NCBI RefSeq assembly: GCF_029948125.1
Contig: NZ_JASAMB010000005.1
Coordinates: forward strand, 186,001-250,000
Source of the DNA: Catellatospora sp. KI3
GTDB lineage: Bacteria; Actinomycetota; Actinomycetes; Mycobacteriales; Micromonosporaceae
DNA: 64,000 nucleotides
Direction: 5' to 3'
Shown: positions 1,535 through 24,728 of the stretch, piece by piece
How the letters are laid out: each line of letters opens with the position of its first letter
Numbering within the stretch: the first letter of the stretch is position 1
Made by a program: the position numbers and the translations under genes
The notes under the pieces: generated by a model
Told to the model about the DNA's origin: nothing
The model's database searches: none
Seen by the model: only the letters and a program-made list of their open reading frames with translations

Positions 1535-4500
1535 ATGCGTACCAGTGAGGACATCTACCACCGGGTCCGGTGGGACCCCCGGTTCGACCCCGCCCGCTTC
1601 GTGCTCGGGGTCTCGCAGCGCACCGCGGCTCCCAAGCGGGTCGCGCTGCCCGCCTTCGTGCCCGGCGGCGACATCCCGTGGCACCGCGTGCTCTACATCG
1701 AGGCCGACGGGGAGATCGTCTGGGACCGCGCCGCGGGCGTGGACCGCCTCGACTCCAGCACCGCCGGCCGGGTCCGGGACGAGCAGGCGCTGCGGGCGCC
1801 GTTCTTCACCGCGGGTACGGCGTACACCTGGCGCGACGGCTGGCAGCCGACGGTGGCCGCCGCCGCTGTGCCGGGCCCGCCCCGGCTGCGGGTGCTGACC
1901 TGGAACACGCTCTGGGACCGCTACGACGGCGAGCTGATCGACACCGCGCTGCGGCGGCCGCTGCTGCTGGCGGCGCTGCGGGCCGCCGACGCCGACGTGA
2001 TCGCGCTGCAGGAGGTCGAGCCGGCGCTGCTGGACCTGCTGCTGGCCCAGCCGTGGGTACGCGAGCGGTACACCGTCTGCGCCGACGTGCGCGAGGTCGA
2101 GCAGTGCGGACTGGTGCTGCTCAGCAGGCTGCCGGTGCGCGAGGTCGGCTGGCACCGGCTGGGGCCGTACAAGGCGCTGACGGCCGTCGCCGTCGACGGC
2201 GCGACCGGCCCGCTGGTCGTCGCGGCGACCCACCTGACCAGCGACCACGCCGAGGGCGGCCCGCAGCGGCGGCAGGCCGAGCTGACCCGGCTCGCTGAGG
2301 GCCTGGGGGGTGTCCCGGGCGACCTGGTGCTGGTCGGGGACTTCAACGACGGCTCCGACGGGCTCGCGGGCACCCTCGGACTGGGCGACGCCTGGACGCT
2401 CGTACACGGTCCCGAGGACCGGACCCCGACCTTCGACCCGGTCGCCAACCCGCTCGCGGCGGTGTCGTCGCTGTCCGGCCGGGCCTCGCGGCTGGACCGG
2501 ATCATGCTGCGCGGCACGGCGCGCCCGGCCGCCGCACTGCTGCTGGGCGACCGGCCGCAGCCCCATCCGGCCGGTGCGGCCGACCGGGTCCTGTTCCCGT
2601 CCGACCACTACGGCGTGCTCGCCGAGCTGGACTTCGGCGACGCCGCCGGCGCGGTGCTCGACGCGGCGCCCACGGCCCGGACCGCGCTGGCCTGGCTGCC
2701 GCCCGAGCGGCTGTGGCCGGCGCTCCAGCAGCTGCGGGCCGAGCACGACCCGAGCTTCGACCGCTGGCCGCCGCACGTGAACATCCTGTTCGGATTCGTG
2801 CCCGAGGCCGCGTTCGAGCAGGCGGCGCCGCTGCTGTCGGCGGCCGCGGCGGAGCTGGCCCCGTTCACCGCGACGCTGGCCGGGGTGCACACGTTCGGCC
2901 ACCGCGACGACGCCACGGTATGGCTCGACCCGGCCGCGGCCGGCGAGCAGCCGTGGGCACGGCTGCACCGGGTCTTCGCCGACCGGTTCCCGCGCTGCCG
3001 GGGGCGGGCCGAGGGCTACACCCCGCACCTGACGCTGGGCCGCAGCCGCGACCCGCAGCAGACCGCCGCCGCCTGCGCCGCCCGGCTGGACCCGGCCGCC
3101 GCGCGGGTCGGGGAGCTGGTGCTGCTGTCGCGGCGCGGCGACGAGCCCATGCGCCCCCGGGCCGTGCTCACCCTGGGCACCGGCGAGCTGCGCTGGCTGA
3201 CCGACCCGCCCGCGCCCCAGGCGCTGCCGTCGGCCGCCGACACGTCCAACGCAGCCGGACCGTCGGCCGCCGACACGTCCACGGCCGCCGGACCGTCGGC
3301 CGCCGGATCGTCCATCGCGGCAGCTGGTCCTCGGTCGGGGCCGCCGGCCGCCGGGTCGGCACCGGCCGCCACCAGCCGATCGGACGCCGCCGCCGCGGCG
3401 CGGATCGTGGCGGCGGTGCGGGCCGCGCTACCGGAGGCGGTCGTGCACGTGGTCGGTTCGCGGGCGCTGGGCTGCGAACTGCCGGGCGGCGATCTCGACC
3501 TGGTGGCGGCCCTGCCGGGCGAGGTGCCCCCGGGCGGCATCCGGCCCCGGGTGGTCGCGGCCCTGCCCGACGCGGTACGGGTCCGGCAGGTCACCGGCGC
3601 CCGCGTGCCCGGCCTGCGCCTGTCCGCGTACGGGCTCGACGTGGACCTGGTGCTGGTCGGCACCGGTGCGCTCGACCCGGACACGGCGGTGGCGCGGCGC
3701 GACGAGCTGGGTGAGGCGGCCGCGATCGCGCTCAGCGCGGTCTCCGACGCGGCCGCGGTCGAGGCCGCCGTCGCCTCCGACCGGGCGGCGTTCGTCCAGC
3801 TCGCCCGCGAGGCCAAGGCGTGGGCCAAGGCACGCGGTCTGGACGCCGCGCCCTTCGGCGGCCTGCCGGGTCTGGCGTGGACGGTGCTGGCGGCCCGCAC
3901 CGTGCGCGCCGCGGGCCCGGCCGAGCCCGAGCAGCTGCTGCGCCGCTTCTTCGGCGACTGGGCGGCCTGGGACTGGCGCGACCCGATCGCCCTCGATCCG
4001 ACCGGCGGCGCCGCGGCGGTGTCTGCTCCGACCGGGCCCGGCGGAGGCTCGGACGTGGGCCCGGACCGCCCTGCCGCGCCGCCGTGCACCGTGCTGACGC
4101 CGACCGCGCCGGTGCGCTCGTGCACCGAGCAGGTGGGCTCCGGGCTGGCGGACCTGCTCACCCAGGAGCTCTACCAGGCGTGGGAGCTGCTGGAGGAGGC
4201 GGCCGGGACCGGCGCCGACGCCCGGCACCTGCTGTCGGCGCCACCGCCGCTGCACCGCCGCCACGCCGCGTGGGCGGTGGTCTCCGTCCGGGCCGAGCAC
4301 CCGGACGCGCTGGCGGAGCTGCTGGGCCGGGTCCGGGGCCGGATGCGGGCGCTGCTCGCGGCGCTGGAGGCGGCCGGTGCCACCGACGCGCACGGCTGGC
4401 CGCGCCCGCTCGGGCAGGGGCCGGTGGTCCGGTTCGCGATCGGGTTGGGCGCACGGCCGCCGGACGCCGCGGGGCTGGCCGCCGTCGCCGACCGCTGGGC

Positions 4501-4564
4501 GGGCGACCTGCCCGGCGTGGAGATCGCCCTCGCGGACGGCGGTGGCGTCCCCACGCTGCGCTGA
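1535..4564 (+). CDS. Four-domain RNA repair/processing polyprotein: MJ1316 (DUF504) - EEP - 2H - poly(A)-polymerase-like
   Basis: A 1009-residue cytoplasmic protein joining four RNA-end enzymes or readers. Residues 1-75 match the MJ1316/DUF504 domain proposed to recognise RNA cyclic ends (PWHRVLYIEADGEIVWDR). Residues 118-367 are an endonuclease/exonuclease/phosphatase domain with WNT at 123-125, LQE at 158-160, GDFND at 268-272, DR at 321-322 and SDH at 356-358. Residues 385-555 are a 2H (LigT-like) domain with HVN at 414-416, where T or S replaces N in most relatives, and HLT at 498-500. A low-complexity linker (565-615, repeated SAADTS units) leads to a nucleotidyltransferase of the eukaryotic poly(A) polymerase type (GSRALG at 641-646, DLDLV at 653-657, DVDLVLV at 702-708). 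The ATG at 1535 gives an intact MJ1316 domain. It stands alone, with a strong hairpin downstream. Domain identities are seen in the sequence; a role in RNA repair is inference from published descriptions of this fusion type. Confidence 0.88.
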   Translation: MRTSEDIYHRVRWDPRFDPARFVLGVSQRTAAPKRVALPAFVPGGDIPWHRVLYIEADGEIVWDRAAGVDRLDSSTAGRVRDEQALRAPFFTAGTAYTWRDGWQPTVAAAAVPGPPRLRVLTWNTLWDRYDGELIDTALRRPLLLAALRAADADVIALQEVEPALLDLLLAQPWVRERYTVCADVREVEQCGLVLLSRLPVREVGWHRLGPYKALTAVAVDGATGPLVVAATHLTSDHAEGGPQRRQAELTRLAEGLGGVPGDLVLVGDFNDGSDGLAGTLGLGDAWTLVHGPEDRTPTFDPVANPLAAVSSLSGRASRLDRIMLRGTARPAAALLLGDRPQPHPAGAADRVLFPSDHYGVLAELDFGDAAGAVLDAAPTARTALAWLPPERLWPALQQLRAEHDPSFDRWPPHVNILFGFVPEAAFEQAAPLLSAAAAELAPFTATLAGVHTFGHRDDATVWLDPAAAGEQPWARLHRVFADRFPRCRGRAEGYTPHLTLGRSRDPQQTAAACAARLDPAAARVGELVLLSRRGDEPMRPRAVLTLGTGELRWLTDPPAPQALPSAADTSNAAGPSAADTSTAAGPSAAGSSIAAAGPRSGPPAAGSAPAATSRSDAAAAARIVAAVRAALPEAVVHVVGSRALGCELPGGDLDLVAALPGEVPPGGIRPRVVAALPDAVRVRQVTGARVPGLRLSAYGLDVDLVLVGTGALDPDTAVARRDELGEAAAIALSAVSDAAAVEAAVASDRAAFVQLAREAKAWAKARGLDAAPFGGLPGLAWTVLAARTVRAAGPAEPEQLLRRFFGDWAAWDWRDPIALDPTGGAAAVSAPTGPGGGSDVGPDRPAAPPCTVLTPTAPVRSCTEQVGSGLADLLTQELYQAWELLEEAAGTGADARHLLSAPPPLHRRHAAWAVVSVRAEHPDALAELLGRVRGRMRALLAALEAAGATDAHGWPRPLGQGPVVRFAIGLGARPPDAAGLAAVADRWAGDLPGVEIALADGGGVPTLR

Positions 4565-17506: not shown

Positions 17507-17509
17507 GGG

Positions 17510-17569
17510 TGCAGTTTCGGGGAGACTGCGGCAATCGCGCGCCGGATTCGTGCACTTTCCCCGAAACCG
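17510..17569. repeat. Palindromic intergenic repeat, family 1, copy 2
   Basis: A degenerate copy of the 64-bp palindrome: GTGCAGTTTCGGGG at one end and CCCCGAAAC at the other, with changes in the inner arm. It lies between divergent genes, directly against the arginase-family start codon. Confidence 0.85.
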
Positions 17570-17649
17570 CTGGGCGCCCCCGGCCTCGCGCCGGGCGGCG
17601 GCGTGGGTGCGGGTTCCGGGGGAACGCGCTGGTCGTTAGGGTGGCGGGC

Positions 17650-24653: not shown

Positions 24654-24716
24654 GTGCAGTTTCGGGGAAAGTGCCGGGATCTCGGCTCGGATTCCAGCAC
24701 TTTCCCCGAAACTGCA
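24654..24716. repeat. Palindromic intergenic repeat, family 1, copy 3
   Basis: Nearly identical to copy 1 at 1423-1486 in both arms (GTGCAGTTTCGGGGAAAGTGC type) with small changes in the centre. It lies between two minus-strand genes, just behind the M23 peptidase stop. Confidence 0.9.
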
Positions 24717-24728
24717 AAGCGGGCGGCC

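Follow-up and report, generated by a model that had tools for sequence, protein, structure and literature searches.

We analysed a window of 64,000 nucleotides from Catellatospora sp. KI3 (contig NZ_JASAMB010000005.1, positions 186,001 to 250,000), and this report concerns one gene near its start, at 1535-4564 on the forward strand. The reading frame is intact and codes for a 1009-residue protein in which an MJ1316 domain, an EEP phosphoesterase, a 2H phosphoesterase and a poly(A) polymerase (PAP)-type nucleotidyltransferase (NTase) are joined. A sequence-only reading had predicted this combination, and Pfam and a profile of the protein's relatives agree on it; "polyprotein", the term used there, is better replaced by multidomain protein. 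The gene is laid out as follows.

1535-4564, + strand: gene for the four-domain protein (ATG at 1535, ends at 4564 with the stop codon included, 1009 amino acids; 47 four-domain sequences aligned)
1535-1729, + strand: MJ1316 domain, residues 1-65 (Pfam PF04457, E 5e-19; PWHR at 48-51 and WDR at 63-65 invariant)
1895-2608, + strand: EEP phosphoesterase domain (Exo_endo_phos), residues 121-358 (Pfam PF03372, E 1e-17; catalytic residues 47/47)
2699-3145, + strand: 2H phosphoesterase domain (2_5_RNA_ligase2; 2'-5' RNA ligase superfamily), residues 389-537 (Pfam PF13563, E 1.3e-34)
2774-2782, + strand: first 2H motif, H414-V-N416 (HxN; H 47/47, N 44/47)
3026-3034, + strand: second 2H motif, H498-L-T500 (H 47/47, T or S 46/47)
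3194-3394, + strand: low-complexity Ala/Pro/Ser linker, residues about 554-620, very variable in length among relatives
3395-3649, + strand: PAP-type NTase palm, residues about 621-705, borders approximate (family profile against nuclear PAPs)
3491-3499, + strand: predicted NTase catalytic D653-L-D655, with the third carboxylate, D704, at 3644-3646
3791-4210, + strand: PAP_central domain, residues 753-892 (Pfam PF04928, E 1e-9)
4211-4561, + strand: C-terminal region, residues 893-1009; eukaryotic PAPs align with its first part only

The Pfam matches to MJ1316 (69.2 bits, curated cut-off 26.3), EEP (65.1, cut-off 24.5), 2H (119.9, cut-off 27) and PAP_central (38.8, cut-off 27.1) all lie above their thresholds. 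For the NTase palm itself, the Pfam signal (NTP_transf_2) stays under the cut-off at E 0.012. This gene is the sole MJ1316 match in the window's genome.

Residue conservation was scored in 47 four-domain proteins, the window's included; nine sequences without all four domains were left out. Loci L003, L006, L007, L010 and L020 were dropped (same genomes as L063, L068, L062, L087 and L060), as was L097, where the gene is broken over two frames. Identity to the window protein ranges from 30 to 84%, and the homologues, whose starts were set by the alignment, often begin similarly with (M/V)RTSE. The linker (window residues 551-623) varies from 7 to 145 residues. Repetition of the domain order across these sequences rules out a chance or mis-joined open reading frame. 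The MJ1316 PWHR and WDR motifs are kept in 47/47, as is each of the EEP residues N124, E160, H233, D269, N271, D321 and S356-D357-H358. In the NTase, G641, S642, D653 and D704 are present in 47/47 and D655 in 45/47. A loss of catalytic motifs in homologues, which would have spoken against the sequence-only reading, was looked for, and the residues are kept almost throughout. Against L002, the closest relative identified, dN/dS over the full gene is 0.30; among its parts the values run from 0.05 in MJ1316 up to 0.45 in the C-terminal region. We conclude from these comparisons that the four-domain protein is real, conserved and functional-looking.

The intactness of the catalytic motifs had been predicted with one reservation, that HVN marks a defective first 2H motif. 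The near-invariance of the motifs bears out the prediction, and the reservation falls away. Both histidines expected of 2H phosphoesterases, H414 and H498, are present in 47/47 proteins. 2H phosphoesterases are defined by HxS/T in both motifs (PMC5283653), and this family departs from that definition, with N in the first motif of 44/47 proteins. HVN also occurs in 5/5 short proteins that consist of MJ1316 and 2H alone. Because HxN recurs in both sets, the missing Thr/Ser is a subfamily trait, and a broken 2H motif is ruled out. By its motifs, the 2H domain is best described as a homologous side branch and not as a textbook 2H phosphoesterase. Its match among solved structures is 2d4g (BSU11850, E 3.1e-7).

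We searched a family profile built from 55 sequences against solved structures, and 60 of 66 matches were listed. The C-terminal third matched human PAP gamma (4lt6, E 1.8e-52) and also bovine PAP alpha, yeast Pap1 and Pla1, and the profile covers the solved PAPs over the palm and central domain. The window's C-terminal segment alone matched PAP gamma (E 1.1e-17), and a distant cyanobacterial protein alone matched yeast Pap1 (E 7.7e-38), so the relation does not depend on any one sequence. The family also has the features of a nuclear-type PAP, namely a palm with three carboxylates (D653 and D704 in 47/47, D655 in 45/47) followed by a PAP central domain. Profile comparison thus confirms that the C-terminal third is genuinely related to nuclear poly(A) polymerases, and the eukaryote-type domain predicted from the sequence alone stands on these matches. 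The likeness to human PAP gamma and yeast Pap1 extends over the NTase and central domains and the catalytic carboxylates. Unlike the nuclear enzymes, this family is fused to RNA-end domains, and the C-terminal RNA-binding part is matched only partly.

We compared the open reading frames around 55 loci (L099 was left out). One gene recurs directly upstream, in 34/55 loci. It codes for a fused protein of 551-683 amino acids with an RNA ligase domain (RNA_ligase, PF09414, E 1.2e-34) and a C-terminal polynucleotide kinase-like domain (AAA_33, E 2.2e-20). This ligase-kinase gene adjoins only genes for EEP/PAP-bearing proteins (34/49 such loci; 31/46 of those with all four domains). The spacing between the two genes runs from a 14-base overlap to a 7-base gap, with starts as chosen in our analysis, and stop and start share one base in 17/34 pairs. 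EKLDGEN, EG.VVR, KWVR and the lysine and serine of the P-loop are invariant in all 34 ligase-kinases. Searched against structures, the kinase part came closest to 4gp6 (E 3.1e-10), followed by L-seryl-tRNA(Sec) kinase (3e-6), T4 polynucleotide kinase (9e-6) and Pnkp1 (4xrp, 2e-5). The 4gp6 entry was deposited as "Metallophosphoesterase"; we take it to be the kinase domain of Pnkp. No RNA ligase was found when the ligase-kinase was searched by profile against solved structures. The ligase part has relatives, 36-54% identical, in 18 viral contigs and matches in 32 phage records, of which the 15 listed are 311-735 kb long. Among the comparison rows listed, no other neighbour recurs widely; other neighbours were not annotated and PADLOC was not searched, so a toxin gene could be present. 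The coupling of the ligase-kinase to 34/49 EEP/PAP loci supports a role in RNA-end repair, as the sequence-only reading had proposed. The standalone location described there is true of the window's genus and is not a trait of the family.

The two-gene operon is not described in the titles and abstract openings of the literature matches listed, a set outside which two key surveys fall. An earlier description of the architecture or the operon may therefore exist. Burroughs and Aravind (2016) and the 2H survey of Mazumder (2002) are said to have proposed MJ1316 as a recogniser of cyclic ends and its fusions as RNA repair proteins, and this architecture may already be listed there.

Relatives of the four-domain protein occur at 19 loci of named genomes, including Catellatospora, Nonomuraea, Streptomyces, Kitasatospora and Dactylosporangium; one of the 19, from Goodfellowiella, has no 2H domain. 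The four-domain order, whose conservation had been put forward as a check, is kept in Micromonosporaceae and also in Streptosporangiaceae, Streptomycetaceae and one cyanobacterial plasmid protein. Counting the window's own genome, MJ1316 was found in only 20/101 genomes of the family and 19/394 genomes of the class. The gene is therefore not a housekeeping gene, as had been supposed. PAP_central occurs in 16/394 class genomes, always at the MJ1316 gene.

The domains have been shuffled. Three loci (L017, L073 and L096) code for MJ1316-EEP-PAP without 2H, and five (L084, L088, L095, L098 and L100) code for MJ1316-2H alone. In genome G461 the two halves are separate genes with an MJ1316 on each, and genome G314 has the full protein plus an additional MJ1316-2H copy. 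The protein is modular, and this pattern fits MJ1316 as the end-recogniser that the different forms have in common. The cyanobacterium Calothrix brevissima carries a four-domain relative on a conjugative plasmid (L099 5995-12290, AP018209.1), with a dynamin-family GTPase gene nearby on the opposite strand. The MJ1316-2H gene at L100 4001-4861 lies on the Streptomyces exfoliatus linear plasmid NZ_CP108239.1, about 4.3 kb from the plasmid start, and the feature table of the collection used has no entry under it. Decayed copies of the four-domain gene were seen at L097 (G476) and L074 (G064). Phage records contained nothing that matched the four-domain protein, and no relative emerged when viral contigs were scanned twice by pattern, the second time with two MJ1316 patterns only; a phage origin of the whole protein was rejected on these grounds.

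Just upstream of the gene in the window, at 1423-1486, is a 64-base palindrome with 32-nt arms that are 94% complementary. Copies with few mismatches lie at 17509-17572 and 24654-24717. Its half-site occurs 336 times genome-wide at no more than one mismatch (backwards control, 0), and the exact core was present only in the window's own locus (L001) and in L002 among 186 loci. The palindrome is a dispersed repeat.

We asked how the ligase-kinase is distributed in the class genomes, calling it at E <= 1e-30 with three candidates scored per genome. It was present in 16/394 genomes, all within the 19 that carry MJ1316, and in 0/375 others (hypergeometric 8e-26, not corrected for shared ancestry). 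Shared ancestry inflates such statistics; the adjacency of the two genes over four named families (tree labels) is independent of them. The three MJ1316 genomes without a ligase-kinase are the window's and two that have MJ1316-2H alone. Both genes have decayed in G476, where an internal gap interrupts the ligase-kinase. RtcB, a suggested associate, was found in 19/19 MJ1316 genomes and also in 158/375 others. The lineages of the two groups differ, so these counts carry little weight for or against RtcB as a specific partner.

We propose that the protein probably heals RNA ends, and perhaps tails them, as part of a 5'-3' RNA repair system. The termini produced by metal-independent endoribonucleases are not substrates for ATP-dependent ligases, and kinases are needed at the 5' end and phosphoesterases at the 3' end (PMC7824862, PMC3400036). 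The kinase and ligase of the partner, together with the 2H and EEP domains, would supply these steps. MJ1316, described as a recogniser of RNA 2'-3' cyclic ends that is fused to RNA repair domains in eukaryotes (PMC6514570), would hold an RNA 3' end with the 2',3'-cyclic phosphate left by an endoribonuclease. The 2H domain may then open the cyclic phosphate and the EEP remove the phosphate to give a 3'-OH. Since the 2H domain is missing in 3/34 proteins beside a ligase-kinase, the EEP may alternatively clear the end alone, or another 2H enzyme may help. The PAP-type domain could add one or more nucleotides to the 3'-OH, replacing lost residues, and the upstream partner would phosphorylate the 5'-OH of the other fragment and then seal. 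KptA, present in the window's genome along with RtcB, would be useful if a 2'-phosphate were left. The sequence-only reading had proposed an order of recognition, trimming, opening and addition. The comparisons above show the domain identities, the intact catalytic residues, selection, gene pairing and co-occurrence; the substrates, the sequence of the steps and the purpose of the NTase are inferred.

Two uses of the NTase would fit. One is tailing for decay; the other is refilling before sealing, as predicted for the nucleotidyltransferase RlaP after excision by an RloC-type nuclease, a loss of the wobble nucleotide that has been proposed to defy simple healing and sealing (PMC7824862). A more ambitious version, which we put forward tentatively and consider rather unlikely, is that the two genes together encode a full apparatus for healing, refilling and sealing, whose captured PAP relative restores excised nucleotides instead of tailing. 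If an RloC-type nuclease had cut out a wobble nucleotide, for example, it would be replaced before the partner seals.

Several known systems provide points of comparison. The yeast and plant tRNA ligase activities comprise a ligase, a kinase and a 2H cyclic phosphodiesterase (PMC3400036), the activities expected of the gene pair. The pair differs in being two polypeptides, in adding MJ1316, EEP and a PAP-type NTase, and in sometimes missing 2H. This yeast-type heal-and-seal set is encoded together at 31/46 four-domain loci; the window's locus is not one of these, its genome having no fused ligase-kinase. Phage T4 Pnk and Rnl1 and the repair systems of jumbo phages have a related ligase and kinase, and in the latter RlaP is predicted to restore lost nucleotides before sealing (PMC2610378, PMC7824862). 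Ligases of the jumbo-phage type are considered to repair tRNA after cleavage (PMC7824862). In contrast to these systems, 3' healing in the gene pair would fall to EEP and 2H, not to a HAD phosphatase, and the NTase belongs with the nuclear PAPs. The bacterial Pnkp/Pnkp1-Rnl-Hen1 systems (PMC4411300) have a kinase akin to the kinase part of the partner (TIGR04075, E 3.7e-10, and Pnkp1, 4xrp), but the domain set is another one and the 38.7 bits lie far under the TIGR04075 cut-off of 750. ANGEL2, a 2',3'-cyclic phosphatase of the EEP superfamily (PMC12265940, PMC9525292), is a precedent for an EEP that clears cyclic ends and so permits polyadenylation. The EEP studied here, a candidate for such an activity, is closer to TDP2. 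No ANGEL2-named entry appeared among the best 60 of 66 profile matches. In our view the protein is a component of RNA repair, familiar in its general kind and new in its combination.

Not all of the evidence favours this model. By sequence, the EEP domain is nearer to TDP2, its nearest solved relative (4fpv, E 3e-14), than to the CCR4 type. The NTase differs from nuclear PAPs at two of three positions that we take to be nucleotide-pocket residues in yeast Pap1, K215, Y224 and N226, the last two presumably facing the nucleotide. K215 is K in 42 and R in 5 of the 47 proteins. Y224 is replaced by D, and N226 by A, in 45/47 each, which are actinobacterial members; the cyanobacterial protein keeps both Y and N. 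These changes make it less likely that the actinobacterial proteins carry out ordinary poly(A) synthesis, and put the choice of nucleotide, even the predicted polymerase activity, in question. The pairing is also far from universal. In the family sample, the ligase-kinase lies beside the gene in just 8/20 MJ1316 genomes. The window's genus (8 genomes) lacks it, and all that the search reached there were other ligase or kinase genes at weak E-values (1e-10 to 5e-5). It is likewise absent from two Streptomyces and from another five genomes of the family that encode an EEP/PAP-bearing protein (G029, G037, G044, G081 and G095). Because several lineages keep the protein and not its partner, the four-domain protein can persist without the ligase-kinase.

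The tree suggests how this absence arose. The eight rows of the window's genus fall inside a 46-row clade in which 34 rows have the ligase-kinase, and since the genus is nested among carriers, it has likely lost the gene. The tree needs four label changes, of which strongly supported branches alone force one; its root is uncertain, with the cyanobacterial row and one outlying group on long branches. No ligase-kinase remnants were detected in 22 sequences of loci without the gene (E <= 1e-3). The window's genome has, on contig C6 (L145 6851-8768), overlapping genes for an RNA ligase (PF09414, 3.5e-33) and a kinase protein (AAA_33, 6e-24). By eye, the N-terminal half of the kinase protein is HD-like, without a Pfam hit, and the protein presumably resembles the HD-Pnk type. 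The ligase of this separate pair was found in 10/12 MJ1316 family genomes without an adjacent ligase-kinase against 0/8 with one (Fisher 0.0007). The ten genomes represent two genera; G064 has a weak partial match, and the kinase lay beside the ligase in the nine that were fetched. The same ligase occurs in 18/81 MJ1316-negative family genomes (Fisher against these, 7e-5), so it is not specific to MJ1316 genomes, a further point against the model. Sealing in the window's genome could fall to the C6 pair, a candidate replacement partner, or to RtcB, or the protein could act without sealing. In G029, which has the four-domain protein and no fused ligase-kinase, a kinase gene with a HAD_PNKP phosphatase domain overlaps an RNA ligase gene (L152 6175-7696).

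Lineages that keep the protein without the fused partner would also be expected if it served RNA quality control, stripping blocking end phosphates and polyadenylating fragments for decay by 3' exonucleases. A true PAP relative suits such a role, and ANGEL2 clears 3' phosphates that otherwise block mitochondrial polyadenylation (PMC9525292). We nevertheless consider quality control unlikely, given that the pairing with a ligase-kinase (34/49 loci, 16/19 class genomes) points to sealing and that the changed pocket disfavours poly(A) addition of the ordinary kind. A still less likely role is self-repair tied to conflict, in which the protein would belong to a defence-side kit, not to general maintenance, and would reverse tRNA or rRNA damage from phage-triggered or competitor ribonucleases. 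The absence of relatives from the phage records and viral-contig scans and of any second widely recurrent neighbour among the rows listed (a toxin gene among the unannotated neighbours would alter this) speaks against that role; the patchy distribution, the phage relatives of the ligase part and the four-domain copy on a conjugative cyanobacterial plasmid speak for it. We regard DNA-end processing, with the TDP2-like EEP removing adducts, the NTase filling and the kinase and ligase sealing DNA, as very improbable. Beyond the EEP, it could draw on the NTase, which weakly resembles DNA polymerase mu (E 0.04-0.33), but MJ1316, 2H, the nuclear PAP kinship and the PF09414 RNA ligase all point to RNA.

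With the proposed healing and tailing role in RNA repair, a PAP relative would operate in a context different from that of the nuclear enzymes, and these genes hold the sole PAP_central matches (E <= 0.001) in the 394 class genomes. The pairing supplies a definite partner for the predicted MJ1316 fusions, along with an activity set that could be rebuilt from two proteins in vitro. The restoring of lost nucleotides in RNA repair, which the jumbo-phage survey treats as a prediction for RlaP (PMC7824862), would thereby become testable.

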